A DNA stretch of 59,572 bases from Lachnospiraceae bacterium (GTDB lineage: Bacteria; Bacillota; Clostridia; Lachnospirales; Lachnospiraceae), in contig JAEEXY010000009.1 in the NCBI GenBank assembly GCA_016288005.1, positions 1 to 59,572 of the forward strand. The letters are read 5' to 3'. Below are positions 59 to 18,241 of the stretch, piece by piece. Below the pieces are notes generated by a model. That model was given only the letters and a program-made list of their open reading frames with translations, ran no database searches and had not been told where the DNA came from. Numbering within the stretch: position 1 is the first letter of the stretch; each line of letters begins with the position of its first letter. Position numbers and translations under genes: made by a program.

Positions 59-697
59 ATGGAAGGAAAGATATTTGATTACGACGGACCGGTCGTACGG
101 GCGACGGAAAAGCTCGGACAGCTGATCCTGCTGAATATACTGACTATACTGTGCAGCCTGCCGGTCGTGACTTTCGGAGCGGCTTTCGCGGCGCTCGATA
201 CGGTAGTGCTGAAGATGTCCAAGAACGAGGAGAGCTATGTGGCGAGATCCTTTTTCAAAGCCTTCAAAGCCAATCTGAAGCTCGGCATAATGAGTTCGCT
301 CGCGATACTCGGGCTGCTCGCGTTCGGACTGGCCGATTACTATGCGACAACACTGGTCGAAGCCTGGTTTGTGGCCCCTGTAAGGGCACTGCTGATCGCG
401 TTCGGAGTATTTTTCGCGATCACCGTTACATTCCTGTTCCCGGTGATGGCCAAATTTGAAGCGGGCTTCGCCGATACGGTCAAAAACGCGTTTAAGTATT
501 CGGTCTCGCATATCGGGAAAACCCTGCTGAAACTGTTCCTGAACCTGCTCCCGTGGATCATCTGCTATTTCTTTTATTTCCTCGGGCCGATACTCTTTAT
601 CTTCGGACTGGCGGTACCCGCGTATCTGGGCACAGGGCTCTACCGCGACGATTTCAAAAAGCTGGAGGATGCTTATTATGCCGGGAAAGATGTTTGA
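59..697 (+). CDS. YesL-like (DUF624) integral membrane protein, copy 1
   Basis: A 212-residue hydrophobic protein with about five predicted membrane segments. It opens with the MEGKIFDYDGP motif typical of the YesL/DUF624 family, whose members sit beside carbohydrate ABC transporters and AraC or two-component regulators in Firmicutes. The biochemical role of the family is not established. A GGAGGA site at 48-53 lies 5 bases before the ATG. The next gene is a paralogue starting inside the end of this one, so the two are translationally coupled. The 58 bases upstream hold only the ribosome-binding site; the promoter is outside the window, so this may be the tail of a longer operon. Family assignment is firm; function is inferred only from context. 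Confidence 0.85.
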   Translation: MEGKIFDYDGPVVRATEKLGQLILLNILTILCSLPVVTFGAAFAALDTVVLKMSKNEESYVARSFFKAFKANLKLGIMSSLAILGLLAFGLADYYATTLVEAWFVAPVRALLIAFGVFFAITVTFLFPVMAKFEAGFADTVKNAFKYSVSHIGKTLLKLFLNLLPWIICYFFYFLGPILFIFGLAVPAYLGTGLYRDDFKKLEDAYYAGKDV

Positions 698-1394: not shown

Positions 1395-1402
1395 CAGCAG
1401 CT

Positions 1403-2524: not shown

Positions 2525-2672
2525 GTCAAAAAATTCCCTTCAATAATTGTCTAAATGTCAAATATTAATACAAAGGTTAAAATCACATACAAATATCAGC
2601 CGAAAACAAGAAAATGAGAATCACTGTAATTTAAAATATAGCACAAATGTCAAGAAAAAAGAATTGTACATA

Positions 2673-2701
2673 TTGACCAATCGTAGGAAAATCTAGATAG
2701 T
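2673..2701 (+). promoter_or_regulatory. Candidate sigma-A promoter of transporter operon
   Basis: TTGACC at 2673-2678 and GATAGT at 2696-2701 are 17 bases apart, 50 bases before the ATG at 2751. An imperfect inverted repeat (GAAAATC and GATTTTTC around 2688-2710) overlaps the -10 region and could be a regulator site. The whole intergenic stretch 2525-2750 is AT-rich with no open reading frame. This is a weak match judged by eye. Confidence 0.4.
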
Positions 2702-2750
2702 GATTTTTCAATAAAATCAACAAATACGTTTTCATGTTTCGGAGGGACCC

Positions 2751-5678
2751 ATGATCAGAAGATGGGAATTCGCGAGAATAATTTCGCTCATACTGGCTGT
2801 CTGTATGTTCTCGGGTGCAGTGATCCCGTACACACAGGTTTTCGCTGCTTCGGGCGCCAGACTTAAGGATAAATACGTCGGCTTCGAGGGCATCCCGGTA
2901 GAGTGGAAATACGGAGCGGACAGCGATGTATTCAGCTACAAGGATACGATGAGCAGACTGAACGCCCCTTATTATGAGGGAGAAGCGATCACGGTGAGCG
3001 CGGCGTCGATCACCGACGAGAACGGCGCGGGTTCGGTGGTTTCCTTCGAGGGCAGGGATGCGTTTTTCTCGGCGGGAAAGAGCGAGTACTGCGAGTTCGA
3101 GCTCAATGTTCCCGAGGACGCGCTCTACAGACTTGAGTTTGATTACTATCTGGACACAAACGTTTCCGATTCGGCAAAACGCGCGTTATATATTGACGGA
3201 AAATATCCCTTCACCGAGGCCGGAGATCTGGTATTCTACCGCTTCTTTATGGATGAGGGCGAGCCGATCTTAAACAGCATCGGAGACGAGACCAGACCCA
3301 AGCAGGTTGCGATAAACGGCTGGAGGACCTCAGGTCTTTCCGATACATCGGGTATCACCTCCGGAGAGTTTGATCTGTATCTCACAAAGGGTTCTCATAA
3401 GGTACGACTCGTTACGATGAAGACCGGCATGTACATCTCCGAGATCAGGGCATGCGCACCGGTTAAGATCAGGCCTTACGCGGAAGTGCTCGCGGAGTAT
3501 AAAGCCGCCGGATATACAGCAGCCGCAGCGGAGACGATCAATTTCCAGGCGGAGCTCACCGCGGTCGAGAAAAACGACCCCACCTTAAGACGCGAGAATG
3601 ACGGCGATCCGCTCGTGGTTCCGATGTCGGATACCTCGAGAAAGCTCAACGTTATGGGCGGATACCGCTGGAGAACGGGCAACCAGAGCATCACATGGGA
3701 GTTTGAAGTCGCAGCGGACGGTCTCTACAAGATCGGTCTCTATACAAAGCAGCAGTGGAACGACGGAATGCCTTCCTTCAGAAGGATAGCGATAGACGGC
3801 GCGGTTCCGTTTGCCGAGCTTGAAGAATACAAATTTGAATATGATACGACATGGAGGCTCAGAACCCTGTCCGACGCAAACGGAGAGCCCTTCAGCTTCT
3901 ACCTGACCAAGGGTGTGCACAGGCTCACGATGACGGTCAAGATGGGAGATCTCGGTGAACTCCTGACATCCGTTCAGGAAGACATCACGGTACTTTCCGA
4001 TATGCTGCTCGACATAAACCTTATCGCCGGCAGCACACCCGACCCGAACTACGATTACAGGTTCTTCGATAAGATCCCCGATATGAAGGAACGTCTGGAA
4101 TACCTGCGCGACAGCATGGAGTACAAATACCAGTACGCCAAAGGAATGGCTGAAAAGACTCCTTCGATCGCAAACCAGTTCCTTACGATCAAGGCGCAGA
4201 TACAGATGATGCTCGACGATCCGTTCAGCATCGCGAAAAAGGTCGGAGATCTGCAGAATTCGCAGACCAATCTTTCGAAATGGTATCAGTCGCTGCAGAT
4301 CGTGCCGCTCGTCATCGACAGCTTCTATGTGGGCAGTCCCGAAGAGGAATGGACGAGCAGGTCTTCGAACTTCTTCCAGAAGCTCGGGGCTACGATGAGA
4401 CAGTTCATGGTTTCGTTCTCGAAGGATTACGACAATGTCGGAGGTGTACTCGCGGAAGATGTTGTGGTTACGGATACGATCAATGTATGGATCGCGAGAG
4501 GAGCCGAGTGGGCCGAGGTTATCAAGGAAATGGCCGACGAGGATTTCACGCCCAAAACCGGCATAGCGATCAATGTTAACGTACTCCCCGCGGGACAGCT
4601 GAAAGCCGGCAACGTTAACGCGCTGATGCTCTCGATCACCTCGGGCAAGGCTCCCGATGTGGCGCTTGGCGTAGATGCCACTTCACCCGTAGAGTTTGCT
4701 ATCCGCGATCAGGTCTACGATCTGTCCGAGATGGAAGGCTTCGATGAGGTAAGAGGCAGATTCGTCGATGCCGCGCTTACTCCCTACGAATACACGGGCG
4801 GCGTATATGCGCTTCCCGAGACGATGAATTTCAACGTCATGTTCTACAGAAAGGACATCCTGAACGAGTTCGGCATCGATCTGCCGAATACATGGCAGGA
4901 TATGTACGATTACGTGCTTCCCGCCATCTATCAGCAGGGTCTCCAGTTCTACTTCGGACGTGACTTTACACAGTTCCTTTATCAGCTGGGCGGAGAGTTT
5001 TATAAGGACGGCGGTTTAAGATCGGCTCTCGATACACCCGAAGCTTACGCCGCGTTTAAGGAATACACCGAGCTGTTCACCAACTACGGTGTCCCCGAGA
5101 CGGCGAACTTCCTGCAGTATTTCAGATCGGGCATCATGCCTCTGGGCGTCGGCGATTTCAATATGTACATGCAGCTTTCTGTTGCGGCACCCGAGATCAC
5201 GGGTAAGTGGGGCATCGTTCCGCTGCCCGGACACATCGATGAAAACGGTGAGATCGACAGGACTGCGGGTGGCCTGACCGAACTGGGCGACATCATCATG
5301 AAGCAGAGCGATAAGCCCAAACAGAGCTGGGAGTTCCTTAAGTGGTGGTCGAGCGCAGAAGTGCAGACCAGATTTGCGAAGGAAGTCGAGGCGATGATCG
5401 GTGCCGAGGCCAGATGGAACACCGCAAACAAAGAAGCTTTCTTAAGCCTTTCCTGGAATGATGAAGATGTCAAAACACTTCAGGAGCAGTGGAGATGGGC
5501 GAAGGAGATCCCGACCGTGCTCGGCGGATATATGACCAACAGACATCTTACCAATGCATGGACAAGTGTGGTCATGAGCGGTATGGATATCCGTGAGGCT
5601 CTCGAGAGTGCGGTCAAGGAGATCAACCGCGAGCTCATCATGAAACAGGAAGAATACGGAGTTATCGGAAATGACTAA
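2751..5678 (+). CDS. Extracellular solute-binding protein with N-terminal carbohydrate-binding-like domains
   Basis: A 975-residue exported protein, about twice the length of a normal sugar-binding protein. Residues 1-33 form a signal peptide ending near VFAA. Two beta-rich segments, about 40-230 and 265-400, repeat features of galactose-binding-like CBM modules (for example 'YRLEFDYYLDTN' and 'YKIGLYTKQQW', each followed by '...LTKGxH(K/R)'). A helical linker spans about 400-565. From about 570 to the end it is a family 1 solute-binding protein (INVWIARGAEW, then GGVYALPETMNFNVMFYRKD and MPLGVGDFN). It is followed directly by two permease genes, overlapping the first by 8 bases. The inferred role is capture of a polysaccharide or long oligosaccharide at the cell surface and delivery to the permeases. 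A clear lipobox is not seen, so how it stays at the membrane is uncertain. GGAGGG at 2741-2746 precedes the ATG. Confidence 0.8.
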   Translation: MIRRWEFARIISLILAVCMFSGAVIPYTQVFAASGARLKDKYVGFEGIPVEWKYGADSDVFSYKDTMSRLNAPYYEGEAITVSAASITDENGAGSVVSFEGRDAFFSAGKSEYCEFELNVPEDALYRLEFDYYLDTNVSDSAKRALYIDGKYPFTEAGDLVFYRFFMDEGEPILNSIGDETRPKQVAINGWRTSGLSDTSGITSGEFDLYLTKGSHKVRLVTMKTGMYISEIRACAPVKIRPYAEVLAEYKAAGYTAAAAETINFQAELTAVEKNDPTLRRENDGDPLVVPMSDTSRKLNVMGGYRWRTGNQSITWEFEVAADGLYKIGLYTKQQWNDGMPSFRRIAIDGAVPFAELEEYKFEYDTTWRLRTLSDANGEPFSFYLTKGVHRLTMTVKMGDLGELLTSVQEDITVLSDMLLDINLIAGSTPDPNYDYRFFDKIPDMKERLEYLRDSMEYKYQYAKGMAEKTPSIANQFLTIKAQIQMMLDDPFSIAKKVGDLQNSQTNLSKWYQSLQIVPLVIDSFYVGSPEEEWTSRSSNFFQKLGATMRQFMVSFSKDYDNVGGVLAEDVVVTDTINVWIARGAEWAEVIKEMADEDFTPKTGIAINVNVLPAGQLKAGNVNALMLSITSGKAPDVALGVDATSPVEFAIRDQVYDLSEMEGFDEVRGRFVDAALTPYEYTGGVYALPETMNFNVMFYRKDILNEFGIDLPNTWQDMYDYVLPAIYQQGLQFYFGRDFTQFLYQLGGEFYKDGGLRSALDTPEAYAAFKEYTELFTNYGVPETANFLQYFRSGIMPLGVGDFNMYMQLSVAAPEITGKWGIVPLPGHIDENGEIDRTAGGLTELGDIIMKQSDKPKQSWEFLKWWSSAEVQTRFAKEVEAMIGAEARWNTANKEAFLSLSWNDEDVKTLQEQWRWAKEIPTVLGGYMTNRHLTNAWTSVVMSGMDIREALESAVKEINRELIMKQEEYGVIGND

Positions 5679-6612
5679 CGAACAGACCATTTTGAATCCC
5701 GCGCTGTCCGGTACGCGGATGGAGAGATTCAAGCGTTTTATACGGAAGAACTGGGTGGGGTACGCCTTTCTGGCTCCCTTTGTGATCCTGTTCACGATAT
5801 TCATAGTACTGCCGGTGGTAACGGCCATAGGCCTCAGCTTCACCGACTACAACATGATGCAGAAGCCGCACTTCGTGGGCGTTAACAACTACAAGCTGCT
5901 GTTCCTCGACGATAAGGTTTTCATCACATCGATCGCGAATACCGTTAAGTTCGCGCTGATCACGGGACCTCTCGGATACCTGCTCTCGTTCTTTGCGGCG
6001 TGGGTCATCAACCAGCTGAAGTTCAAGAGATTCTTCGCGCTGGCCTTCTATGCGCCCTCGATCACCTCGAGCGTTGCGATGTCCACGGTTTGGATGATAG
6101 CCTTCTCGGGCGACAGATACGGTTATATCAATGATTTCCTCTTAAATCACGGTATCATCGATGAGCCGATACTCTGGAACACGGACCCGACCTATATCAT
6201 GACCGTAGTCATGATCATCCAGCTCTGGATGAGTATGGGTACAGGATTCCTCGTTTTTCTTGCCGGTCTGCAGAACGTTGACCGTGCCATGTACGAGGCG
6301 GGCTCGATAGACGGAGTCAGGAACAAGTTCCAGGAGCTGTTCTACATCACGCTTCCCGCGATGAAGCCGCAGCTGCTGTTCGGCGCGATCAACTCGATCA
6401 CCGGAGCGTTCGGAGTATTCGAGATCGCGGTCAATGTAGCCGGCATGCCAAGTCCGAACTACGCGGCCCATACGATCGTCGCGCATCTGTACGACTACGC
6501 GTTCATACGATTCCAGATGGGCTACGCTTCCGCGGTTGCGGTCGTGCTCTTCCTGATTACCTTCATACTCGGACGCATAGTTATGAAGGCGCTCTCGTCA
6601 AAGGACGAGTGA
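5671..6612 (+). CDS. Sugar ABC transporter permease (MalF/UgpA type)
   Basis: A 313-residue inner membrane protein with six predicted membrane segments and the cytoplasmic EAA loop (YEAGSIDGV...LPAMKP, about residues 208-230) that contacts the ATPase. It starts inside the stop region of the binding-protein gene (ATGACTAA overlap), so translation is coupled, and it is followed by its MalG-type partner 27 bases later. Together with 2751 and 6640 it forms a carbohydrate uptake-1 (CUT1) importer lacking its ATPase in this window. Substrate is unproven; the neighbouring pectin genes suggest rhamnogalacturonan oligosaccharides. Confidence 0.92.
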   Translation: MTNEQTILNPALSGTRMERFKRFIRKNWVGYAFLAPFVILFTIFIVLPVVTAIGLSFTDYNMMQKPHFVGVNNYKLLFLDDKVFITSIANTVKFALITGPLGYLLSFFAAWVINQLKFKRFFALAFYAPSITSSVAMSTVWMIAFSGDRYGYINDFLLNHGIIDEPILWNTDPTYIMTVVMIIQLWMSMGTGFLVFLAGLQNVDRAMYEAGSIDGVRNKFQELFYITLPAMKPQLLFGAINSITGAFGVFEIAVNVAGMPSPNYAAHTIVAHLYDYAFIRFQMGYASAVAVVLFLITFILGRIVMKALSSKDE

Positions 6613-6639
6613 GATCAATAATTTTCAGAGGTATCTGTC

Positions 6640-7521
6640 ATGATAAAGATAAAGTGGTTCAAGGGACAATGGCTTCACATCACTTTCGGCAAGACCCTTC
6701 TGCTGATAGTGATGCTCGCCCTCGTTTGTTTTACGGCCCTTCCGCTCATATATGTTGTGGTTACGGCGTTCAAGCCGCTGGATGAGTTAAACTTATATCC
6801 CCCGAGATTCACGGTTAAGAACCCGACAGGAAAGAACTTTTCCGACCTCGTTATATCGCTCGGCAGCTCGGCGGTTCCTTTTACCAGATACGCTTTCAAC
6901 AGCGTTGTGATCACTGTCACGATCGTTTTGCTGACCGTTCTGGTCTCATCGCTCGCGGCGTATTCGCTGGTTAAGTTCAAGCCCAAGGGCGGCAATCTGA
7001 TATTTAACCTGATCCTCGTAGCGCTGATGTTCTCACCCCATGTTACGAAGATCCCGAGCTACATGGTCGTTAACGGACTGAACCTGATCAACACCTACTG
7101 GGCGATGATACTGCCGAGCATCGCGGTCGCCTATAACTGCTTCCTGATGAAACAGTTCATAGAGCAGTATCCCGATGAGCTGATCGAAGCAGCCAGGATC
7201 GACGGAGCCGGAGAGCTCAAGATATTCTGGAAGATGGTCATGCCCGCGCTCGCGCCCGCATGGTCCACACTGATAGTTTTCTCGTTCGTAAATAACTGGA
7301 ACGACTACTTCTCACCCCTGATCTATATCACGAGCCAGGCGATGAAGACCCTGCCTCTCGCGCTCCAGACGATCGCAGGAGGCGCTGCGGGTATGACGGT
7401 ACAGCGTGCGGGTGCCATGTCGGCGGCTACGCTGCTGATGACGCTGCCCACGGTCGTAATATTCACGGTAATGCAGGGAAAGGTCATGGAGACCATGGCT
7501 TATTCCGGAATAAAAGGCTAA
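6640..7521 (+). CDS. Sugar ABC transporter permease (MalG/UgpE type)
   Basis: A 293-residue permease with six predicted membrane segments and a canonical EAA loop (EAARIDGAGELKIFWKMVMP, about residues 187-206). It ends with a short MalG-like tail. It is the second transmembrane subunit of the importer built with the genes at 2751 and 5671. The next gene follows after 16 bases with its own GGAGGAGA site, so the operon continues. The annotation to family is secure; the substrate is inferred from context. Confidence 0.92.
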   Translation: MIKIKWFKGQWLHITFGKTLLLIVMLALVCFTALPLIYVVVTAFKPLDELNLYPPRFTVKNPTGKNFSDLVISLGSSAVPFTRYAFNSVVITVTIVLLTVLVSSLAAYSLVKFKPKGGNLIFNLILVALMFSPHVTKIPSYMVVNGLNLINTYWAMILPSIAVAYNCFLMKQFIEQYPDELIEAARIDGAGELKIFWKMVMPALAPAWSTLIVFSFVNNWNDYFSPLIYITSQAMKTLPLALQTIAGGAAGMTVQRAGAMSAATLLMTLPTVVIFTVMQGKVMETMAYSGIKG

Positions 7522-7537
7522 GCGGCATGGAGGAGAT

Positions 7538-9700
7538 ATGAAAAGATCAAAACGTATTGCGGTGCTGCTTCTGGCCCTGCTGATGGTGCTCGGCACCGGG
7601 GCGACGGGCGCGTCTGCCGTCGCGGCCGGATCCGGCAGCTATGTTACGGGTGATGACAACTATCGCCAGCCCGTTCCGGAATGTTACGTGGTTGCGGAGA
7701 CAATCTACAACCTGCGCGGTATCCAGGATAAGAACCTGACGTTCAAACAGCCCAAGGATCTGTTCATTGACGACAATGACATGATCTATGTTGTGGATTC
7801 CGGCAATAAGCGCGTGGTCAAGCTCGATCAGGAATTCAACGCGGTCGCGGTCTATTACGGACCCGATAAGGCTTTCGCGGATCCCCAGGGTATATTCGTG
7901 GACGCCGACGGAGATATGTACGTCGCCGATACCGAGAACAAGCGCATCGTTCACATGGACAAGGACGGAGCGCTCGTCGAGGAGTTTACGAACCCCGAGA
8001 GCGAACTGCAGACAGGCGATGTATTCACGCCTACCAAACTGATCGTTTCCCAGACCGGTTACATCTATTCGGTCAAGGGCGAAAATATAATGGCTATAGA
8101 CGGAAACAACGTTTTCCGCGGATACTACGGCCAGACCAATATCGGTTACAGTTTATCCGAGGCACTGTTCAGAATGTTCGCTTCGGAAAAGCAGAAGGCT
8201 TCCCACCTTAAGAGACTTGCCGCTTCGTACATCAACCTGACTTACGGCAAGGACGGCATGATCTACGCTACGAGCATGGAGCGTGAGGAAGGTGAGATCA
8301 AGAAGCTCAATTCGATCGGTACCAACATCTACCGCAAATACAAGACCATCGGAAACAAAATGAGAAATCCCATCAAGGATTTCATCGAGAATAAGCTGTT
8401 AAAGGCGGTCGTTGCGGGACAGAGCTTCAAGTTCGGTGAGTATTTCAACGACGAGGGCATGTACATCGAGCCTTATTTCGCGGATATCTGCGTGGATGAC
8501 AACGGAGTTGTAACGGTCATCGAGCAGCTCAACGGAAAGGTTTACCAGTACGACCAGGACGGCAGGATGCTCGTGGCATTCGGCGGACTCGGCGAGAGGA
8601 CCGGTACCTTTACCAGACCCAGCGCGATCGATGTCGACAGCAAGGGCAGGCTCTATGTACTCGACCAGATCGACAACAGTATCCAGGTCTTCGAGCCCAC
8701 CGAGTTCATCGGCTACATACATGAGGCTACATCGGCCTACAACAACGGCTATTATGAAAAGTCCTTCGAGCTCTGGCAGAAGGTACTCTCGATCGACGAG
8801 AACTACTCGCTCGCACATGTCGGCAGCGCAAGAGCGTACTACAAGCGCGGCATGTACAAGGAGGCAATGGAAGAGGCCAAGATCGTGGCCGACAGAGATG
8901 TCTACACGATGGCTTTCGATGAGTACAAATACGAGGTTCTGAGAGCCAACTTCTTCCTGATCATCATGATCGCGCTTGCGATAATCGCTGCGGTGATCAT
9001 ACTCGTCAGAGTGTTCTTAAAGCGCGGAAAGAAAAACTACTGGGATTTCATTTCCAACAAGGGCAGGAAGATGACGATACTTTCGGGCATCAGCTACAGT
9101 TTTTACGCTATGGTGCATCCGATGGATTCGCTCGAAGGCATCAAGACGAACCGTGACAGGATAAACAGGGCGGTGCCGCTGATCATATTCGCCGCTGCGT
9201 TTGCTGTCAGGATCGCGTACCTGTTCGTAGTGCATTTCCCGCTGGCCTCTATCGAGCACACGGACATCAACCCGCTGTTCGAGCTGGTCAAGCTTTTGAT
9301 AGTACCTGTTTCGTGGATACCCGCGTCGTTCATGGCGACGAGTATCTCGGGCGGTGAGAGTAAGATAAAGGAGATCACCTTTGCGAGCGCGATCTCACTT
9401 ACTCCCTTCATCGTTATCAACGTTCCGCTGATGTTCCTGTCGAACATCATGTCAAAGACGCAGAAGTCCTGGTACGGTGTTTTCCAGACTCTCGCCTACA
9501 TTGGAATGTTCCTGATCCTGTTCTTCGCGATGCTCGTGCTGAACAATTACACAGTCGGCAAAGCGATAGGCATGATGCTGGTATCGGCATTCCTCATGCT
9601 GGTACTCTGGCTGGTCATCCTCCTGTGCTACGTGCTCTCGGGCAGAGTGATCCAGTTTATACTCTCGATAATTGAGGAATTCAGATTAAATTACCTGTAA
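7538..9700 (+). CDS. Exported NHL-repeat propeller fused to TPR-like helices and YIP1-like membrane domain
   Basis: A 720-residue protein with an unusual domain order. Residues 1-30 are a signal peptide. NHL beta-propeller repeats are visible at about 65-150 (IYVVDSGNKRVVKLD, MYVADTENKRIVHMD) and again at about 315-390 (LYVLDQIDNSIQVFE), separated by a helical insert. A TPR-like pair lies at about 400-455 (NNGYYEKSFELWQKVL, YYKRGMYKEAMEEAK). A membrane segment lies near 465-488, and a YIP1-like domain with four or five membrane segments fills 535-715. The propeller should therefore be extracellular. It sits between the two permease pairs in one operon, 18 bases before the DUF5696-like gene. 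A role in assembling or gating a surface glycan-uptake complex is inference; no enzyme motif is seen. Confidence 0.75.
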   Translation: MKRSKRIAVLLLALLMVLGTGATGASAVAAGSGSYVTGDDNYRQPVPECYVVAETIYNLRGIQDKNLTFKQPKDLFIDDNDMIYVVDSGNKRVVKLDQEFNAVAVYYGPDKAFADPQGIFVDADGDMYVADTENKRIVHMDKDGALVEEFTNPESELQTGDVFTPTKLIVSQTGYIYSVKGENIMAIDGNNVFRGYYGQTNIGYSLSEALFRMFASEKQKASHLKRLAASYINLTYGKDGMIYATSMEREEGEIKKLNSIGTNIYRKYKTIGNKMRNPIKDFIENKLLKAVVAGQSFKFGEYFNDEGMYIEPYFADICVDDNGVVTVIEQLNGKVYQYDQDGRMLVAFGGLGERTGTFTRPSAIDVDSKGRLYVLDQIDNSIQVFEPTEFIGYIHEATSAYNNGYYEKSFELWQKVLSIDENYSLAHVGSARAYYKRGMYKEAMEEAKIVADRDVYTMAFDEYKYEVLRANFFLIIMIALAIIAAVIILVRVFLKRGKKNYWDFISNKGRKMTILSGISYSFYAMVHPMDSLEGIKTNRDRINRAVPLIIFAAAFAVRIAYLFVVHFPLASIEHTDINPLFELVKLLIVPVSWIPASFMATSISGGESKIKEITFASAISLTPFIVINVPLMFLSNIMSKTQKSWYGVFQTLAYIGMFLILFFAMLVLNNYTVGKAIGMMLVSAFLMLVLWLVILLCYVLSGRVIQFILSIIEEFRLNYL

Positions 9701-9718
9701 AGAAAGGAGACCCGGGAA

Positions 9719-11986
9719 ATGATCAAGGATTTTCTCTTGAGCCGTTTAGGCACCATCATTTTCTTTATCATAGTCGCGGTCTTATTTCTGGTAGGTTCCT
9801 CAAGGATCAAGAAAGCAAGACAGAACGCGATAACATACAGCAACGAATATGAGGCACCCGAGGCCGACGCCGACCTGCAGGCCGACGGAGAATACGTACC
9901 GATCGCAAATAACGGACAGCTCGAGCTCCTCTACAGCGATGTCAAGGGTGCGATACAGATAAGGGACTTAGAGAGCGGAAAGCTCTATAAGTCGATCGTG
10001 GACGAAGAGGTCTATCCGACACTCAAAAAGTCGAACAAGCAGTGGAAAGCGCATATGCAGTCCGCGATCACGATCAAGTACAACGACCTGAAAAAGAGAG
10101 ATTCGGGTGTTAAGGAGGCTTCGGCCGGCAAAGACTGCGGCAGCCTCACCTCCGAATATATCGACAACGGCGTGAGAGTTACATACGGATTCTTAACTCC
10201 AGGTATCTACGTAACCGTCGAGTATACGATCGAAGGGAACGAGCTGGTTGTCAGGGTTCCCTACGATAAGATCGAGGAAAAGTCCAAATTTGCGGTCACC
10301 ACGATAGCGGTGCTCCCGTATCTCGGAGCCTGCGGCAACGAAAACGGGGGGTATCTGTTCTATCCCGACGGCAGCGGCGCGGTAACGACCTTTGAGCGTG
10401 TCGGAGAACGCTCCGCGAACGCAAAGATGGCGATCTACTACACCTATTCCAACAAGGCGGTCAGCCTGAACAACCTGTTCTTCAATTACGAGCGTTACAC
10501 GGCCGCATTGCCTGTTTTCGGAATAAAGAACGGTGACAGTGCGGTATTCGGTTACGCGACCGTAGGCGAGTCAAATACCGGAATCGGTGTTTATCCCTCG
10601 GGAGTCGTGCTTGATCTGAACAGAGCCGGCTTTGAGGTTTACGTACGTAATGTCTACAACGTTGACATGTACAGCATTTCGAGCGGTGACGGCAATACCG
10701 CTACCGGCGGTATCGTACAGCGTGTGGATAAACAGCTCATCCCCGAGGATAAGGTCATCAGATACGCGTTCCTCGACGGCGAGGCGGCAGATTACAGCGG
10801 AATGGCGGATGTTTACAGGAACTACCTGATCTCGTCCGGACAGCTGAACAAGGCGGATAAAGTCGACAATACTGCACTGGCTCTCCAGCTCCTCATGGGA
10901 ACTACAAAAGAGGGCATCGTATTTGACGAATATGTTACGATGACGACCTTCGACCAGGCGGTTGAGATCCTCGACGCCCTCAAGATGCAGGGCATCACCG
11001 ATACGGAGCTCGTTCTCACGGGCTGGCAGAAGGACTACAACGAGTACGAATACTGGGGACCCGACAGGCATCTCGGCGGGAAATCCGGTCTGAAGGATAT
11101 GTCCGAATACGCAGCCGCCAATCCCGGAATACGGGTGTTCATCGAGAGCGATCTCGTTGCGGCTTCATCGGAGACCAACGGACTCGACCGCGAAAAGGAA
11201 GTTGCCTACAACGGTCTGAATACGGAGATCGCGATGAAGGACTTCGACGGAACCTTCAGGTACCTCAGAAATCCCGCCGCGATCAGGAATACAAATACGA
11301 AGATGCTGGGCAAGTATGACAATTATCCCGGACTCGACATCGGCTACTTCGATATCGGATACTTTGCGTATCCCGATTTCAACGAGTGGCATCCCTACAC
11401 CAAGACCGAGACGGTCGAGGAACTTAAGAACACTCTGAAAGACACGGAGGCGGCAGGAAAGGCGATCGCCGTCAAAGGCCAGAACCAGTATGTGTTCGGA
11501 TCCGCGGACTATATCTATGGCATAAGCGACGCGAATTTCGGACTGGCGATCACGGACTACGCAGTACCTTTCGTACAGATGGTCATCTCGGGACTTATCC
11601 CTTATTCCTCAGGGAATGCGGGCAATCTCTCGTATGACCTGCAGACTCAGAAACTCCAGTGGATCGAGTTCGGCTCTATGCCGATGTTCTACCTGACCTA
11701 TGAGTCGGCGCTGAAACTGCGCGATACCGACGCGGATACGCTTTTCTCCTCCACATGGAGCGACTGGAAGCCCGTACTCACCGACACCTACAGGGAGTTC
11801 AAGGAGAATTTCGGAGCGCTCGCTGGCAAGCGCATGACCGCGCATACCGTACTCAGCGAGAAGTCGAGAAAGATCGAGTACGAGGACGGAACCGCGATAT
11901 ATCTGAACTATTCGGATAAAGATGAGACCTTCGAAGGGATCACGATCCCTGCAAAGGATTATGTAGTGATCGGAGGTGGACGCTGA
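9719..11986 (+). CDS. Membrane-anchored DUF5696-like protein, possible glycosidase fold
   Basis: A 755-residue protein with one N-terminal membrane anchor (about residues 8-27, no cleavage site seen) and a large outside domain. It resembles DUF5696 proteins found beside YIP1-type proteins and sugar transporters in Paenibacillus and Lachnospiraceae; this match is from memory. The central part (about 390-640) has an alternating beta-alpha pattern with acidic strand ends (ELVLTGWQKDYNEYEYWG, IRVFIESDLV, GLDIGYFDIGYF), and the C-terminus (IYLNYSDKDETFEGITIP) resembles the small beta domain after a glycosidase barrel. A ribosome-binding site AAAGGAG lies upstream. It overlaps the next permease gene by one base (TGATGG). 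Enzyme activity is not demonstrated by any motif recognised. Confidence 0.65.
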   Translation: MIKDFLLSRLGTIIFFIIVAVLFLVGSSRIKKARQNAITYSNEYEAPEADADLQADGEYVPIANNGQLELLYSDVKGAIQIRDLESGKLYKSIVDEEVYPTLKKSNKQWKAHMQSAITIKYNDLKKRDSGVKEASAGKDCGSLTSEYIDNGVRVTYGFLTPGIYVTVEYTIEGNELVVRVPYDKIEEKSKFAVTTIAVLPYLGACGNENGGYLFYPDGSGAVTTFERVGERSANAKMAIYYTYSNKAVSLNNLFFNYERYTAALPVFGIKNGDSAVFGYATVGESNTGIGVYPSGVVLDLNRAGFEVYVRNVYNVDMYSISSGDGNTATGGIVQRVDKQLIPEDKVIRYAFLDGEAADYSGMADVYRNYLISSGQLNKADKVDNTALALQLLMGTTKEGIVFDEYVTMTTFDQAVEILDALKMQGITDTELVLTGWQKDYNEYEYWGPDRHLGGKSGLKDMSEYAAANPGIRVFIESDLVAASSETNGLDREKEVAYNGLNTEIAMKDFDGTFRYLRNPAAIRNTNTKMLGKYDNYPGLDIGYFDIGYFAYPDFNEWHPYTKTETVEELKNTLKDTEAAGKAIAVKGQNQYVFGSADYIYGISDANFGLAITDYAVPFVQMVISGLIPYSSGNAGNLSYDLQTQKLQWIEFGSMPMFYLTYESALKLRDTDADTLFSSTWSDWKPVLTDTYREFKENFGALAGKRMTAHTVLSEKSRKIEYEDGTAIYLNYSDKDETFEGITIPAKDYVVIGGGR

Positions 11987-12957
11987 TGGCTGAAAATAAC
12001 GCACCTGCTGCAAAAAAGAGAAAACGCGTCCTCTCTTTGAGAGCCAAGAACGCATTAAAGGGACTGGTTTTCGTAACTCCGTTCATTATCGGACTCATTG
12101 CCTTTTTCATCTATCCGATATTCTTCTCTTTGAGGATAAGCATTGCCGAGACCGTAGAGATCATCGGCATGAAGCTCAAGGGCATTACGTTTTACCAGTA
12201 CAAGCGCGCGTTTGTCGAGGATGTCGATTTTGTACCGACCTTCATCGACACCGTAAAATACACGCTTACGACCTTCCCGCTCACGATCATCCTTTCGCTG
12301 ATCATCGCGATCCTGCTGAACAAGGAGATCAAGGGAAGAGGACTGTTCAGAGTGATCTTCTTCATTCCTTTCCTGCTGGGAAGCGGTGAGATCATGAGAC
12401 AGCTCTTAAACCAGGGCGTTGACCGTGCCGTCTTAAACATCGCGGACGGACGCATCATCCCCTACAATGTTTTAAGTTATTTCGGAACGACGATAGTCGA
12501 TGTCGTTCAGGGACTGTTCGGAACTCTCGTTACGGTCCTGTGGCGAAGCGGCGTACAGATACTCCTGTTCCTTGCGGGACTGCAGAGCATCTCGCCCGCG
12601 CTCTACGAAGCGGCCAGGATCGACGGAGCTACAGAGTGGGAGCTTTTCTGGAAGGTTACGATCCCGATGATCTCCCCGATGATGCTGCTGACTCTCGTTT
12701 ATACGATAGTCGATTCCTTTACGAGCATCGATAACAAGCTGCTCGCGTACATCAAGACCTACGGTTTTGCGAATGCCGAATTCTCGTATGCGTCGGCACT
12801 CGGCTGGATATACTTCGTCTTTATCGGACTCCTGGTAGCGATCATATTCGGCATCATGAAGAAATACATGCATACAAGCGAAGTTGAGGAGGTAAGAAAG
12901 CGTGAGCGCAAGCACAGAGTCATTACAATTGAAAAAGCCCGCAGAACTACCTACTGA
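11986..12957 (+). CDS. Sugar ABC transporter permease (MalF/YesP type)
   Basis: A 323-residue permease with six predicted membrane segments and an EAA loop reading YEAARIDGATEWELFWKVTIP (about residues 205-225). It resembles YesP, the rhamnogalacturonan transporter subunit of B. subtilis, though this is judged from general similarity and context. Its start codon overlaps the stop of the DUF5696-like gene, so it is in the same operon. A basic cytoplasmic tail follows the last membrane segment. It pairs with the permease at 12902 and the lipoprotein at 14009 to form a second importer, again without an ATPase gene here. Confidence 0.9.
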   Translation: MAENNAPAAKKRKRVLSLRAKNALKGLVFVTPFIIGLIAFFIYPIFFSLRISIAETVEIIGMKLKGITFYQYKRAFVEDVDFVPTFIDTVKYTLTTFPLTIILSLIIAILLNKEIKGRGLFRVIFFIPFLLGSGEIMRQLLNQGVDRAVLNIADGRIIPYNVLSYFGTTIVDVVQGLFGTLVTVLWRSGVQILLFLAGLQSISPALYEAARIDGATEWELFWKVTIPMISPMMLLTLVYTIVDSFTSIDNKLLAYIKTYGFANAEFSYASALGWIYFVFIGLLVAIIFGIMKKYMHTSEVEEVRKRERKHRVITIEKARRTTY

Positions 12958-13918
12958 TAACAAGTTCAAGCTTCGCATGCGGCTCTTCGCGAGAAGATAC
13001 CTGACCGAAACCGGTATTAAAAAGCTTCTGCTGCGGATCGTAATGTATCTGCTGGTCTGCGGTCTGGCGTTCGTTTTCCTGTATCCGTTCCTTTACATGA
13101 TCGTTAAGTCGCTCATGACAAACTCAGATCTGATCAGTTCGTCCGTAGCATGGCTCCCGACAGAGCTCAAGTTCGAGAACTATGCGATCGCGCTCGATCT
13201 GATGAAGGGAAAGGTTTTCGCAAAGAACTCGGTGCTTGTTACCGTGGTTGCCTGCATAGGACACGTTTTTTCGTGCTCCTTCATAGGCTACGGTTTCGCG
13301 AGATATAACTTCCCCGGGAAAAAGCTTCTGTTCGTGTTCGTCATCCTGGCGTTCATCGTACCCACACAGACGCTGATCATCCCGTCGTACCTGACCTATT
13401 CGCGTTTCGGATGGCTCAACACCTACCTTCCGCTCACTGTTCCCGCGTTCTTCGGCTTCGGCCTGCGCGGAGCGCTGTATGTGTTCCTGTTCAGACAGTT
13501 CTTCCTTACGGTGCCGCGGAGCCTTGAGGAGGCGGCGAGGATCGACGGCTGCGGATTCTTCAGGACCTACTGGAAGATCGTATTCCCGCTGGCGCGCGCG
13601 ACCATCGTTGTAGCGCTCGTTCTCGCGGTAGTATGGCACTGGAACGATTCCTACGAGCCCGGCATCTACATCACGAGCCCGGCCAAGCAGTTCCTTCCGC
13701 CCAGGATCAGACTGATCGTTGAGGCGGCAAACGCGCTTCCCGACCAGCAGCAGGAGATGCTCCGCCAGCTCGGTCTTGAGGAAGGCGAAGATACTCTTAA
13801 CGATGCTGTTGTTATGGCGGGTGCCGCCATCATCAGCGCACCGGTACTTCTGTTCTTTGCATTTGCCCAGAGGCAGTTCATGCAGGGAATCGAGCGTTCC
13901 GGAATCACGGGCGAATAA
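12902..13918 (+). CDS. Sugar ABC transporter permease (MalG/YesQ type), GTG start
   Basis: A 338-residue permease with six predicted membrane segments and an EAA loop (LEEAARIDGCGFFRTYWKIVFP, about residues 202-223). The GTG at 12902 is chosen because GAGGAGG at 12886-12892 lies 9 bases upstream. This makes a 56-base overlap with the preceding permease gene in another frame, an arrangement that suggests translational coupling. Between the last two membrane segments there is an extended outside loop (about 265-310) longer than in typical MalG proteins. The gene is followed by 90 bases before the lipoprotein gene. Confidence 0.9.
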   Translation: MSASTESLQLKKPAELPTDNKFKLRMRLFARRYLTETGIKKLLLRIVMYLLVCGLAFVFLYPFLYMIVKSLMTNSDLISSSVAWLPTELKFENYAIALDLMKGKVFAKNSVLVTVVACIGHVFSCSFIGYGFARYNFPGKKLLFVFVILAFIVPTQTLIIPSYLTYSRFGWLNTYLPLTVPAFFGFGLRGALYVFLFRQFFLTVPRSLEEAARIDGCGFFRTYWKIVFPLARATIVVALVLAVVWHWNDSYEPGIYITSPAKQFLPPRIRLIVEAANALPDQQQEMLRQLGLEEGEDTLNDAVVMAGAAIISAPVLLFFAFAQRQFMQGIERSGITGE

Positions 13919-14008
13919 GCCCGCAACCAGGTATTTCCCGGGGGACGATCCGAGGAGACGTTTTCCGTGAGATATACAAAAATATTTTAAATTCAGGGAG
14001 GATTTACA

Positions 14009-15709
14009 ATGAGAAAACTTCACAGGATTCTCGCAGTTCTTCTGGCAGTTGCCATGATCGCAAGCCTTGCTGCATGCAACAAGAGCACAGACGATCCCAA
14101 TGCAGGCCAGAACACCACGACCACTGCGCCTACAAAGGCACCCGACAATGGTCAGACAACAACACAGGCTCCTTCGGACAACACAACACCTACCGATGAG
14201 CCCGCACAGCCCGAGCCTCCTATGGCTCTTACAATCTCACTTCCCTCCGATAACGAGCACGTTGCAAACGGAGAGAACGACGCTGAGATGCAGTACTACC
14301 AGAAGCTGATCGATGAGCTTCAGGAGAAGACCAACACAACTCTTTCGTTCGAGTGGCTTGCTCAGGCAACCTACTACGATGAAGAGCACCTTGGACTTAA
14401 GATCTCCACAAAGGACGTTGCCGATATCCTTGTAGTTGGTAAGGACGCTACTTTCCTTGCAGCAGCTGAGGAAGGCCTTTTCTGGGATCTGGCTCCCTAC
14501 ATCGATGATTATCCGAACCTTGCGACCATCCCCGAGGCTACCCGTCAGAACGCTTCCTACAACGGCAAGATGTACGGTATCCCTCGTTCGAGAACACTTG
14601 CACGTAACGGTCTCGGCTACCGTCTTGACTGGCTCAACAACCTGAACCTCGCTGAGCCTACAGACTGGGAGTCATTCCACAACATGCTCTACGCTTTCAC
14701 TTACAACGATCCCGACGGCAACGGTGTTGACGATACCGTAGGTCTCGGACTTGACCAGTGGACCGGCGTATGGAACATCATGATGGTTTGGTTCGGCGTT
14801 CCCAATGAGTGGGGTCTTACCGCTGACGACAAGCTTATCTACAAGGTTGAAACTCCCGAGTACATCACCGCTCTTAAGGCATTCCGTGACCTCTATGCAG
14901 AGGGCGTTATCAACAACGGCGCTAACGGTGTTCCGGATCTTATGGATGAGACACTTACACCCGGTAAGGCAAGAGATAACCTGTTAAGAGCAGGTCTTGC
15001 AGGCTGCGGCGTACAGGTTCTTGACGACCAGAGAAAGGTTGAGACCTATTTCGAGAGCGACGATGTCGGACTCGCTACCGCTGACGATCCCATCTACACC
15101 CTTCAGGGCTATGTAGATACCGGTAAGGGCGCATTCTGCCTTCCTACCACAGGTATGAACAACCTGATCGCAATCTCCACAAAGAACATCAAGACCGAGG
15201 ATCAGTTAAGAAGAGCTCTCCAGTTCCTTAACGACCTCAACAACGGCGAGATCCTTAACCTCATCGAGTACGGTTGGGAAGGTCTTACCTACGAGATCGA
15301 CGAAGACGGCTATGTATCACTCTTTGACGCTGAAAAGCTTGCTGAGACCGGTGTTCAGTCATCTCAGTGGAACTTCGGTTTCAACCAGATGATCCCTTAC
15401 TTCACCGCTCCCGAGAACGCACGTCCTGTTGACCGCAACCTCTACACCAGCGAGATCACCAAGCTCGAGCAGAAGCTCTATGCTGAGGATATCCAGTACT
15501 GCGTACCCAACTACGGCGCAAGCTTCACTTCGGATACTTATGTAACAGACGGCAAGACTCTTGATACCATCATTGCCGACGCTCAGCAGCAGTTCATCCT
15601 CGGCCAGATCGATGAGTCCGCTCTTCTTGAGGCTATCGCTACATGGAAGACCTCCGGCGGAGACAAGGTTACCGCGGAAATGAACGCGCTTTACCAGCAG
15701 TTCAAATAA
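14009..15709 (+). CDS. Sugar ABC transporter solute-binding lipoprotein
   Basis: A 566-residue family 1 extracellular solute-binding protein. It has a lipoprotein signal with lipobox SLAAC, the lipidated Cys near residue 23, then a Thr/Pro/Gln-rich flexible linker to about residue 70. Its size and motifs fit the LplA-like group of CUT1 binding proteins. It is last in the operon, after permeases 11986 and 12902, with AGGGAGG just upstream. Codon use differs visibly from its neighbours (CTT for Leu, GCT/GCA for Ala, GTT for Val), the pattern of a highly expressed gene, which fits a binding protein needed in excess over permeases. Substrate is inferred to be an RG-I fragment. Confidence 0.92.
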   Translation: MRKLHRILAVLLAVAMIASLAACNKSTDDPNAGQNTTTTAPTKAPDNGQTTTQAPSDNTTPTDEPAQPEPPMALTISLPSDNEHVANGENDAEMQYYQKLIDELQEKTNTTLSFEWLAQATYYDEEHLGLKISTKDVADILVVGKDATFLAAAEEGLFWDLAPYIDDYPNLATIPEATRQNASYNGKMYGIPRSRTLARNGLGYRLDWLNNLNLAEPTDWESFHNMLYAFTYNDPDGNGVDDTVGLGLDQWTGVWNIMMVWFGVPNEWGLTADDKLIYKVETPEYITALKAFRDLYAEGVINNGANGVPDLMDETLTPGKARDNLLRAGLAGCGVQVLDDQRKVETYFESDDVGLATADDPIYTLQGYVDTGKGAFCLPTTGMNNLIAISTKNIKTEDQLRRALQFLNDLNNGEILNLIEYGWEGLTYEIDEDGYVSLFDAEKLAETGVQSSQWNFGFNQMIPYFTAPENARPVDRNLYTSEITKLEQKLYAEDIQYCVPNYGASFTSDTYVTDGKTLDTIIADAQQQFILGQIDESALLEAIATWKTSGGDKVTAEMNALYQQFK

Positions 15710-15751
15710 TGTTTTAAAACGAAACGCATAGTTTTTCTATGACTATTTACA

Positions 15752-15783
15752 GGCAGCATACGTCGCTTGTATGCTGCCTTCTT
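15752..15783 (+). terminator. Rho-independent terminator of transporter operon
   Basis: A perfect 10-bp stem (GGCAGCATAC at 15752-15761 with GTATGCTGCC at 15769-15778, 7-base loop) is followed by TTCTTT. It lies 42 bases past the lipoprotein stop codon and before the start chosen for the PL11 gene. Confidence 0.85.
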
Positions 15784-15811
15784 TAAAAAAACGGGGACAG
15801 CGTGGATCTGT

Positions 15812-18241
15812 ATGAAAATAAAGATCAAAAGCATTGATAAAAAATATGTGACTGTCGGGTGGGACAGTGTGAAGGACGCGGACGGATACGCCCTGTTCTG
15901 GGCAGATTCGGACAGCCCTTCGATGGTTTATCAGAAAAGATATTCGGGGAAAGACACCGAATTCACATTACTCAAATCCACTCATATTCCGCACTGGTTT
16001 TACGCGGAAGCATATAAAGACGGAAAAATGCTCGAAAGAAGCGAAAAGCTTGCTTCCGGGATAACATATAAACTTAACCCGCGGCTTGAAAAACTGAACA
16101 GGGGACTGGTTGCGGCAGGGACCGGCGAGGGTATATTTCTGGCATGGAGGATGTTTAAGGACGAGGTTAAATCGGCCGACGCATCGGGCATGAGAGGAAC
16201 CGATTATTCGGTATATCGCAACGGCGAAAAGATCGCATTTGTCACAGATTCGACCAACTGGCTGGACCGTGACGGAAAAGAAGGCGACACCTACAGTGTG
16301 GCGCCCGTATCCGACGGATGCGAAGGCGCGAAATGCGCTCCGGTTTCGGTGATCAAAGGCGGCAAAAACTATATCGAGATACCTCTTAAAAAGCCCGAAG
16401 GCGGAGTAACTCCGGCGGGCGAGGAATATACATATTCAGCGAACGACATGAGCGTCGGCGACATCGACGGAGACGGAGACCTCGAGTTCTTCCTCAAATG
16501 GGATCCTTCGAACTCCCATGACGTTTCGCACAGAGGCTATACGGGAAACTGCTATATCGACTGCTACAAAATGGACGGACGTCTTATCTGGCGTCTCGAC
16601 ATGGGACGCAACATCCGTGCCGGCGCGCATTATACGCAGTTCATCGTATATGATTTTGACGGCGACGGAAAAGCAGAAATGTCCGTAAAGACGGCTCCGG
16701 GCACGAAAATGACCGTGTTCGGCGAGGACGGAAGAGTTGTTTCCGAGAGATTCATCACACTGCCCGACGCCGATATCAAGGCCGGCATAACCCACGAGGA
16801 CAATTATGTCTGCACCTCGGCCAATTTCTGCGAATATACGGTCAACCGCTTCATGAACTGGCGCGAACAGCCTGAGGTAAAGAGCGGACAGTGGCCCGAT
16901 ACGCTGGAAAAATGCTGGGATATACCGCAGCGCTACGAGTATCCTCTCTCCAGGAAGGACGCGAGCGCTCTGGCCGATTTCTATTTTGACGAATACGCGC
17001 CCGCCAAGGACCCCAGGAACAAGCTCAGAGAGTTCGAGGGCTTCATCTACGAAGGTCCCGAGTATCTTACGATGTTCGCGGGTGACGGCAGGGAACTCGA
17101 GACCATAGAATTCCCCGTGCTCCGCGACGATGACGGTCTGCGCTGGGGCGATTACGCATGGCGCAGGATAGAGCCCTGCAACAGAGTCGACAGGTTCCAG
17201 TCGGCCGTAGGATATCTGGACGGCGAGAACCCGTTCCTGATCATCTGCAGGGGGTATTATACCAGGACCACGATCACGACCTACCGTTTCAGGAACAGCA
17301 GGCATGAGGAGTATTTCCGCGTGGATTCGGGCTATGTTCCCATGGACAACCCGTTCGGGCATCACTGCTCGCCAGACGGCACCGATCCCGTTTACGGCTG
17401 CATCACGGGTCAGGGCGATCACAGCCTCTCCGTGGCAGATATCGACGGTGACGGCTGCCATGAGATCATTTACGGCGCGTGCGCGATCGACAACGACGGA
17501 AGCGTGCTCTATTCCTCGAAGGACAAAATGCCCGACGGCAGGATGGTAAAGCTCGGCCACGGCGATTCGATGCATGTGGCGAGGATCAATCCCGACAGGC
17601 CCGGCTTCGAGATATTCAACGTATTCGAGGGCGCTGATTCGGTGCCTTACGGATATGCGTTAAGAGACGCCGAGACCGGAGAGGTATTCTTCGGTGAGAG
17701 AGCGGCCAGAGACCTCGGCAGATGCATGATAGGAGATGTGTGCCCCGGTGTCAGGGGACTCCAGGTATGGGTCGGCAAGATCCGTGACTGCAAGGGCAAC
17801 TTCATTGACGCTCCCGTTCTCGGAACCAATGCGAATATAAAATGGGCGGCGGACCTTTCGACGCAGGTGATCGACGGCGTGGATTATGTCGGCGGACATC
17901 ATATCGGCGTGATAGGTGACAATACACACGGAGTGATGCTCGCGCCCGAGGGCTGCGCGACCAACAACGGAACAAAGGGCAATCCCTGCCTTGTTGCCGA
18001 TATCATCGGCGATTTCAGGGAAAACCTCGTTTTGCGCACCGAAGACAGCTCTGCGGTAAGGATCTACATCAATACACAGATCACGAAGCACAAGCTCTTT
18101 ACGCTGCTCCATGACACGATGTACCGCTGCGGAGTCGCATGGCAGAACAATGTTTACAACCAGCCCTGCTACACCTCGTTCTACTATGCTTCGGACATGG
18201 ATTTCAGAGACGTCCTGCCCGAGCTCGGTATCGAAAAATAA
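15812..18241 (+). CDS. Rhamnogalacturonan lyase, PL11 (YesW/YesX-like), cytoplasmic
   Basis: Cleaves the alpha-1,4 bond between rhamnose and galacturonate in the rhamnogalacturonan-I backbone by beta-elimination. The family is recognised from calcium-binding repeats such as DIDGDGDLEFFLKWDPSNSHD followed by GYTGNCYIDCYKMDG and later DFDGDGKAEMSVKTAPGT and DIDGDGCHEIIYGACAID, all characteristic of the eight-bladed PL11 propeller. An N-terminal region with fibronectin-III-like character (VTVGWDSVKDADGYALFW) precedes it. The frame is open from 15767, but that would place the start inside the terminator hairpin, so the ATG at 15812 is preferred although its ribosome-binding site is weak. No signal peptide is visible, so it probably acts on imported oligosaccharides. 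Length is about 809 residues, longer than secreted YesW. Confidence 0.9.
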   Translation: MKIKIKSIDKKYVTVGWDSVKDADGYALFWADSDSPSMVYQKRYSGKDTEFTLLKSTHIPHWFYAEAYKDGKMLERSEKLASGITYKLNPRLEKLNRGLVAAGTGEGIFLAWRMFKDEVKSADASGMRGTDYSVYRNGEKIAFVTDSTNWLDRDGKEGDTYSVAPVSDGCEGAKCAPVSVIKGGKNYIEIPLKKPEGGVTPAGEEYTYSANDMSVGDIDGDGDLEFFLKWDPSNSHDVSHRGYTGNCYIDCYKMDGRLIWRLDMGRNIRAGAHYTQFIVYDFDGDGKAEMSVKTAPGTKMTVFGEDGRVVSERFITLPDADIKAGITHEDNYVCTSANFCEYTVNRFMNWREQPEVKSGQWPDTLEKCWDIPQRYEYPLSRKDASALADFYFDEYAPAKDPRNKLREFEGFIYEGPEYLTMFAGDGRELETIEFPVLRDDDGLRWGDYAWRRIEPCNRVDRFQSAVGYLDGENPFLIICRGYYTRTTITTYRFRNSRHEEYFRVDSGYVPMDNPFGHHCSPDGTDPVYGCITGQGDHSLSVADIDGDGCHEIIYGACAIDNDGSVLYSSKDKMPDGRMVKLGHGDSMHVARINPDRPGFEIFNVFEGADSVPYGYALRDAETGEVFFGERAARDLGRCMIGDVCPGVRGLQVWVGKIRDCKGNFIDAPVLGTNANIKWAADLSTQVIDGVDYVGGHHIGVIGDNTHGVMLAPEGCATNNGTKGNPCLVADIIGDFRENLVLRTEDSSAVRIYINTQITKHKLFTLLHDTMYRCGVAWQNNVYNQPCYTSFYYASDMDFRDVLPELGIEK

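Follow-up and report, generated by a model that had tools for sequence, protein, structure and literature searches.

The 59,572-nucleotide stretch examined here, referred to as the window, is contig JAEEXY010000009.1 of a Lachnospiraceae bacterium (assembly GCA_016288005.1), and its positions 2751–15709 hold eight open reading frames (ORFs). A first-pass annotation of this DNA had described them as two sets of one binding protein and two permeases arranged around two envelope proteins, and both the coordinates and the Pfam matches agree with that description (SBP_bac_1 twice, BPD_transp_1 four times, NHL, and DUF5696 at 460 bits). Each set comprises an extracellular solute-binding protein (SBP) and two BPD_transp_1 permeases, the makeup of a CUT1 importer. 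The locus would therefore encode two complete CUT1 importers, SBP1-a1b1 and SBP2-a2b2, together with three accessory modules: an NHL-TPR propeller, a YIP1 domain, and DUF5696. Gene overlaps of 8, 1, and 56 bases were verified, the last depending on a GTG start codon closely preceded by a GAGGAGG ribosome-binding site. The terminator placed earlier at the cassette end is also present (−19.9 kcal/mol, z −5.6); this hairpin was absent from the list given by a terminator scan of positions 1–18500, and a promoter scan of the same region was at chance level (16 sites versus 15.8 expected). Coordinates are collected in Table 1. We lean toward the view that the window holds a copy of a widespread glycan-import cassette, tandem CUT1 in type and inherited jointly, in which the accessory envelope proteins are obligate and a single MsmX-type ATPase serves both importers.

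Table 1. Predicted genes and features of the eight-gene cassette and its immediate flanks (window positions)
Feature	Position	Strand	Basis and remarks
SBP1	2751..5678	+	hydrophobic segment 6-32; CBM6/35-like modules and helical stalk ~60-545; CUT1 solute-binding domain ~576-960
CUT1 permease a1	5671..6612	+	Pfam BPD_transp_1; EAG replaces EAA, EAA loop one residue longer
CUT1 permease b1	6640..7521	+	Pfam BPD_transp_1; clade of its own
NHL propeller and TPR-like part fused to YIP1-type membrane domain	7538..9700	+	Pfam NHL; NHL/TPR side probably extracytoplasmic
DUF5696	9719..11986	+	N-terminal hydrophobic helix 2-35, GH129-fold beta-sandwich and barrel; PF18952, AlphaFold, Foldseek
CUT1 permease a2	11986..12957	+	Pfam BPD_transp_1; clade
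CUT1 permease b2, GTG start	12902..13918	+	Pfam BPD_transp_1; clade
SBP2, lipobox LAAC, kin of AlgQ-type binding proteins	14009..15709	+	Pfam SBP_bac_1; Protein Data Bank (PDB) matches
Rho-independent terminator hairpin, then TTCTTT	15751..15779	+	folding
Divergent AraC-type regulator	1403..2524	-	Pfam HTH_18
Rhamnogalacturonan lyase family 11 (RGL11), first downstream rhamnogalacturonan I (RG-I) enzyme gene	15812..18241	+	Pfam RGL11_C, E 3.6e-158

Conservation of gene order was read with profiles made from the window proteins and run over every one of 156 DUF5696 loci. Three sets contributed. The first had 21 loci from the source genome and its relatives: the window and 20 of the 51 further places that scored above 100 bits across 61 genomes. 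The second took every DUF5696 hit of at least 480 bits outside the source genome, 55 in total, from a sample of 398 genomes drawn evenly over the phylum, and the third took the 80 best-scoring named loci among 569 confirmed stretches; DUF5696 relatives were present in at least 569 of 591 scanned stretches. NHL, YIP1, and DUF5696 are contiguous in 152/156 loci (19/21, 54/55, and 79/80 in the three sets), the four exceptions being cut off by contig ends. A pair of permeases comes after DUF5696 in 148/156 (20/21, 52/55, and 76/80), with seven of the eight misses at contig ends. When a tandem cassette is defined by both features together, 144 of the 156 loci, the window included, carry one, and all but one of the 12 misses are again at contig ends. 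The conservation check set beforehand in the first-pass annotation, that the middle genes lie next to sugar transporters in related genomes, was thus strongly passed.

The complete order SBP1-permA-permB-NHL-YIP1-DUF5696-permA-permB was found in 108/156 loci (16/21, 29/55, and 63/80). In six loci (L151, L161, L165, L173, L174, and L175), the SBP1-a1b1 set sits downstream instead; some of the other loci lacking the complete order are cut at contig ends or, in L079, have an altered upstream part, and a few upstream sets were scored as misses through one failed profile (e.g., L196 and L208, in which the contig end truncates SBP1). Six cassette copies are present in the source genome. Copy numbers from the phylum survey are minima, since scoring stopped at three candidates per genome; genomes G122 and G195 have at least five cassette places each, with NHL places on contigs beyond the three scored DUF5696 places. 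Two irregular loci were also observed: L215 is the sole interior locus in which two permeases were not found directly after DUF5696, and in L190, from a Lachnospiraceae metagenome-assembled genome (MAG), DUF5696 near 10649–12532 is in two pieces, through either a frame break or an assembly error.

The two middle genes also keep company with each other in the genomes surveyed. In the window NHL-YIP1 protein, the TPR part falls under the Pfam cutoff (24 of 27 bits), hydrophobic segments span residues 465–498 and 542–713, and the YIP1 part has no Pfam match up to E 10; three stand-alone relatives match PF04893 Yip1 (E 4e-16, 7e-12, and 5e-11). NHL and YIP1 share a single ORF in 44 loci, and for nearly all of the 106 NHL ORFs without YIP1, YIP1 comes next as a separate gene; their fusion in one ORF suggests contact between the two parts. 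Across the 398 phylum genomes, the NHL-TPR profile gave strong matches (at least 190 bits) in 38, with four additional genomes containing ordinary NHL proteins at 76–85 bits. DUF5696 reached at least 480 bits in 37 of these genomes, every one of them among the 38. In the 38th, G302, the NHL gene (contig C103, locus L266, 7682–8536) is truncated and has unrelated neighbors; no other cassette gene lies on that contig, and the gene is a probable cassette remnant. Six contigs of the 61 relatives with a strong NHL match but without DUF5696 were looked at again. In five, the NHL gene reaches or nearly reaches the contig end, and the sixth (L260) ends 635 bases past it; upstream, four of the contigs carry SBP1-permease-permease, one carries such a set in which SBP1 is incomplete, and one carries a permease only. 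Because the survey agrees in both directions, from DUF5696 to NHL and from NHL to DUF5696, the middle genes can be called practically inseparable: NHL-YIP1 and DUF5696 practically never occur apart, and permeases nearly always follow DUF5696. A candidate YIP1-DUF5696 fusion in L083 (a 1102-amino-acid ORF) was rejected; up to E 10, Pfam gives DUF5696 and no Yip1, and the YIP1 reading continues the NHL frame after one stop.

Joint inheritance extends to the permeases. In a FastTree phylogeny of 538 permeases, a2 (146/146, support 0.90) and b2 (148/148, 1.0) each formed a clade, as did 117 b1 with the six relocated b3 sequences (0.97) and 113/114 a1 with 6/7 relocated a3 (0.77); ORFs outside 240–460 amino acids had been dropped beforehand, reducing a1 from 118 to 114, b1 from 118 to 117, a2 from 148 to 146, and b3 from 7 to 6. 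Since the four permeases form four clades, the cassette appears to be old. The EAA-loop pattern is matched by window b1, a2, and b2 and not by a1, and the relatives behave likewise (b1, 116/118; a2, 122/148; b2, 138/148; a1, 0/118), with a stricter pattern retaining just 16/148 of a2. The a1 group has EAG for EAA and a one-residue-longer loop in 113/118. In the source genome, the best relatives of a1 are those of the other five cassettes (268–323 bits; next, 136 bits). Distances among the cassettes of one genome also correlate across components (Spearman 0.76–0.97; 17 pairs drawn from 45 complete cassettes in 35 genomes), and such agreement within a genome is not explicable by species relationship.

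Components differ in how far they have diverged. Mean identity, taken over 110 complete cassettes from the 156 loci, was highest for a1 (0.60), b1 (0.58), and the SBP1 binding domain (0.52). It fell to 0.47 for both a2 and b2, to 0.42 for NHL and for YIP1 (a figure that fused ORFs blur in the case of YIP1), to 0.41 in the N-terminal part of SBP1, and to 0.35 in DUF5696. These differences suggest a constant arm, SBP1-a1b1, and a variable arm, DUF5696/a2b2.

The two binding proteins are of different build. SBP1 matches Pfam SBP_bac_1 at residues 586–872, and in profile searches its second N-terminal module matches the CBM35 of 5x7g (E 3.2e-9) and its first, weakly, the CBM35 of 2vzp (E 0.003); the stretch after these CBM-like modules matches designed coiled coils. 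The 540-residue N-terminal part has matches at six places only in the genome, namely, the six cassettes. SBP1 segment 6–32 contains no lipobox and may be an anchor or a cleavable signal; crude regular expressions found a lipobox in 7/117 SBP1 relatives in one count and 3/122 in another, with ORFs outside 850–1100 amino acids excluded from the former count. A similarly crude cleavage-like motif occurred in 78/122 SBP1 and 84/156 DUF5696 proteins, in which the N terminus may be an anchor or be cleaved. For SBP2, a lipobox (LAAC) was read from the sequence, and PDB matches included 3omb, 6fth, and AlgQ2; the lipobox count for SBP2-type proteins (68/145) is blurred by ORF starts and was not used.

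The locus appears to draw its ATPase from elsewhere. As the first-pass annotation had noted, no ATPase gene is present: the genome has 107 listed ABC_tran matches, from 150 scored of 171 first-look candidates, and the window contig (C22) contains none of them. Likewise, no MsmX-like ATPase above 200 bits was found across the 156 loci, 15 of which carry some ATP-binding cassette (ABC) ATPase ORF. CUT1 importers sharing MsmX or MsmK ordinarily have no local ATPase. Elsewhere in the genome, OB_MalK was found at three places, one on contig C23 and two on C25. The C23 gene is an ABC ATPase by Pfam, its neighbors by eye include no permease, and C23 has no CUT1-permease match; both C25 genes lie a few genes away from a permease match.

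The cassette has already been described in Caldicellulosiruptor bescii. The available part of PMC8579813 describes an operon, xloEFG-X-GH129-axoFGE, that lies with xylanase genes, is induced on xylan and cellulose, and is assigned to the regulators XynR and AraR; it also reports a shared MsmK, the deletion of whose gene impairs growth on xylan, pectin, and cellulose. The order SBP-permease-permease-X-"GH129"-permease-permease-SBP is the same as in our cassette, so that gene order and regulation are already known in one genus, on the evidence of those parts of the papers; there the locus is treated as two importers, with "X" and "GH129" unexplained in the portions available (PMC8579813 and PMC12285236), and the glycan is xylan as opposed to, probably, RG-I at the window. 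The XDL operator sequence and its binding by XynR are given in PMC12285236 as far as its available text goes. The exact operator occurs in L162, L163, and L164, all with the complete cassette order, and in L162 it lies 91 bases upstream of the SBP1 ORF. A similar site with two mismatches was seen in L131 at 14796, in a relative with a 7.3-Mb genome. Among the matches listed in a literature search of titles and abstract beginnings, only the two C. bescii papers treated the cassette as a unit, and its breadth of conservation, the NHL-YIP1-DUF5696 unit, and the SBP1 architecture were untreated; DUF5696 was not mentioned by name in the literature searched.

CUT1 oligosaccharide importers with a shared MsmX or MsmK likewise consist of a binding protein and two permeases with no local ATPase. 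The cassette differs from them in having two importers, three accessory modules, and CBM-like modules on a binding protein. The earlier proposal had two parts: that the middle proteins belong with the two importers, which synteny bears out, and that the whole is a Gram-positive counterpart to SusCD, which did not hold up, as none of the eight proteins matches a SusC (TonB-dependent transporter) or SusD (lipoprotein) family in Pfam. Bacteroides SusCD-type systems and the cassette alike combine dedicated glycan-binding proteins and transport in one polysaccharide locus, but the cassette would be ATP driven and act at the cytoplasmic membrane. Moreover, eight of the 80 named loci (L222, L224, L228, L242, L253, L255, L257, and L259) are titled Treponema or Spirochaetaceae, all of them MAGs. 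Spirochaetes possess an outer membrane, and therefore a cassette there would act at the cytoplasmic membrane; if correctly binned, these MAGs would extend the system to bacteria with two membranes and further weaken the SusCD idea, the alternative being misbinning of some contigs.

A model of cassette function can be proposed from these data. Extracellular lyases, suggested by the neighboring genes, would release RG-I oligosaccharides, which SBP1, DUF5696, and the NHL propeller may hold in a glycan-binding array at the outer face of the cytoplasmic membrane, as their domains and topology suggest. YIP1, given its fusion to NHL and its synteny, may anchor this array in the membrane and would probably also link it to the permeases. 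Either importer could then take up oligosaccharides of differing size or type, with both powered by a shared MsmX-type ATPase for which the three MalK-type genes are candidates. SBP1-a1b1 would be the more conserved arm, and the more variable DUF5696 and a2b2 would probably set specificity. Because NHL and YIP1 share an ORF in 44 loci and the cassette is inherited as a unit, a physical complex of cassette proteins is likely. More tentatively, all components may form a single membrane supercomplex, in which four CUT1 permease chains are bridged by NHL-TPR-YIP1 and a probably noncatalytic DUF5696 receptor and fed by the CBM-like SBP, the SBP1-a1b1 arm serving many glycans and the DUF5696/a2b2/SBP2 arm providing specificity; we regard this version as possible rather than probable.

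How DUF5696 is understood bears directly on this model. An AlphaFold model built with 100 relatives in the alignment (pLDDT 88.8, pTM 0.89) has an N-terminal helix, a beta-sandwich, and a barrel, and Foldseek placed GH129-type enzymes first, then GH101, GH31, and GH36, in agreement with profile searches. The best structures were 5opq (E 3e-34; TM-score 0.62/0.70; root-mean-square deviation [rmsd] 7.7) and NagBb, 5wzn (E 5.5e-26; TM-score 0.62/0.74; rmsd 5.4). As modeled, DUF5696 has a GH129 fold, aligning over most of its length with the GH129 alpha-N-acetylgalactosaminidase NagBb and the GH129-like DagB (TM-score 0.59–0.62 by query and 0.68–0.74 by target); it differs from them in its low identity (12–14%), its hydrophobic N-terminal helix, and an acid/base position that is not conserved. 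That helix, residues 2–35, may be a membrane anchor or, alternatively, cleaved. In Pfam, window DUF5696 matches only PF18952 at E 0.001 and not Glyco_hydro_129, while L034, a close relative of NagBb, matches both; a search with PF11308 (GH129) over 149 genomes found no match and was uninformative, the control genomes being silent too. The catalytic Asp435 of NagBb (identified in the available text of PMC5698469) falls on window D545 through the motif YLDV/YFDI, just past model strand 539–543. Position 545 is Asp in 61/100 relatives, the window included. Glu478, which we take to be the acid/base partner of Asp435, aligns with K in the window and with D or E in 24/100 relatives, both catalytic assignments being soft as the hhalign alignment is displaced by four residues where the nucleophile lies. 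Three acidic positions are well kept: 553 (D in 90/100), 613 (D in 90/100), and 650 (E in 94/100).

DUF5696 could accordingly be read as an active GH129-type glycosidase on the membrane side that trims oligosaccharides, its two kinds of products being taken by the two importers while NHL-YIP1 holds it in place. Its top structural and profile matches, D545, the three acidic positions, and the GH129 label on the C. bescii gene (in the available part of PMC8579813) are all as such an enzyme would have them, but the poorly kept acid/base position and a nucleophile Asp in only 61/100 relatives are the reasons that we do not class DUF5696 as a GH129 enzyme, and the cassettes adjoin enzymes for many different glycans. 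We judge an active glycosidase to be unlikely, if the most serious of the alternatives, and a receptor role somewhat likelier than an enzymatic one on the model. A sensor of bound glycan or of transport activity, with NHL-YIP1-DUF5696 feeding regulation from outside the transport path, would suit the binding folds (propeller, TPR, and GH-like barrel) and the AraC-type regulators on either side of the window copy. Against this, none of the three modules contains a kinase, response, or DNA-binding domain by Pfam, and regulators vary by locus (AraC at the window, LacI beside L070, and XynR/AraR in C. bescii, according to the text available), so that we consider a sensor improbable. Little more probable is the notion of two independent importers in one operon, with the middle proteins as envelope helpers retained by operon inertia. 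The arms do separate in some clades, but all 37 DUF5696 genomes of the 398 also carry the NHL protein, NHL-YIP1 is one ORF in 44 loci, and inheritance follows four clades; even the six reordered loci keep SBP1-a1b1 nearby, with their relocated permeases in the a1 (6/7) and b1 (6/6) clades.

Several points weigh against the jointly inherited import cassette that we favor. The permease tree was made of cassette permeases, with no outside CUT1 permeases, and in the source genome b2 is not cleanly apart from a noncassette permease (C113). The 17 within-genome pairs are few and not independent, 10 of them coming from the source genome, and fused loci count one ORF as both NHL and YIP1. The arms can part, as in the six loci with SBP1-a1b1 downstream and in L170, which has pieces only. 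In 13/55 phylum loci, all of families f88 and f73, NHL-YIP1-DUF5696 has no SBP1-a1b1 beside it in the stretch covered, which for L136 and L148 includes little upstream sequence. A conserved operon need not mean a complex, the argument for which is drawn from genes, and import of RG-I by the window copy is suggested by gene neighborhood.

Firmicutes are major fiber degraders of the gut, rumen, and compost, and their uptake has mostly been described in terms of single CUT1 importers. If the cassette works as one machine, it would add an uptake architecture to those of SusCD and the simple CUT1 importers, would explain many hypothetical, YIP1, and DUF5696 annotations in fiber-degrading bacteria, and could mark oligosaccharide-uptake loci. 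Retention of the genes in almost unchanged order by many bacteria that degrade plant fiber suggests an uptake machine exceeding the textbook sugar importer in size; if the supercomplex is real, it would represent a previously unrecognized class of ABC import machine. Direct tests of the cassette are possible in C. bescii, which has its own copy.

Cassette neighborhoods point to a range of cargoes. In a survey of 100 proteins, chosen at random from 235 same-strand downstream ORFs and matching 76 families in all, the matches listed included GH43 (11), GDSL esterases (5), GH26 (4), GH10 (3), and GH5 (3), along with GH42, GH3, GH30, GH31, and GH95; others were housekeeping or unrelated genes. Given this range of glycan enzymes, the cassette seems to serve several plant glycans. 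The cargo of the window copy is probably RG-I products. Its RGL11-type lyase gene, for which the mechanical ORF begins at 15767 and the ATG at 15812 was chosen by reading the sequence, is followed by genes for an AraC regulator, a PcRGLX-type protein, an FGGY kinase, and a RhaA isomerase and, further downstream, a class II aldolase, a GH88-family hydrolase (which we take to be GH105-like), a GDSL esterase, and a lacto-N-biose-phosphorylase family member. The last of these, at 31959–34145 within the RG-I locus, is presumably a galactosyl-rhamnose phosphorylase, given that setting. A 1060-amino-acid protein with no Pfam match at E 0.01 (19785–22967) is encoded after the AraC regulator and before the PcRGLX-type gene; a 1063-amino-acid protein without a Pfam match likewise comes after the cassette in L073. 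On the other side, the divergent AraC-type gene is the probable local regulator of the cassette, and beyond it two overlapping genes (59–697 and 669–1394) encode small membrane proteins that, by eye, resemble the YesL/DUF624 family.

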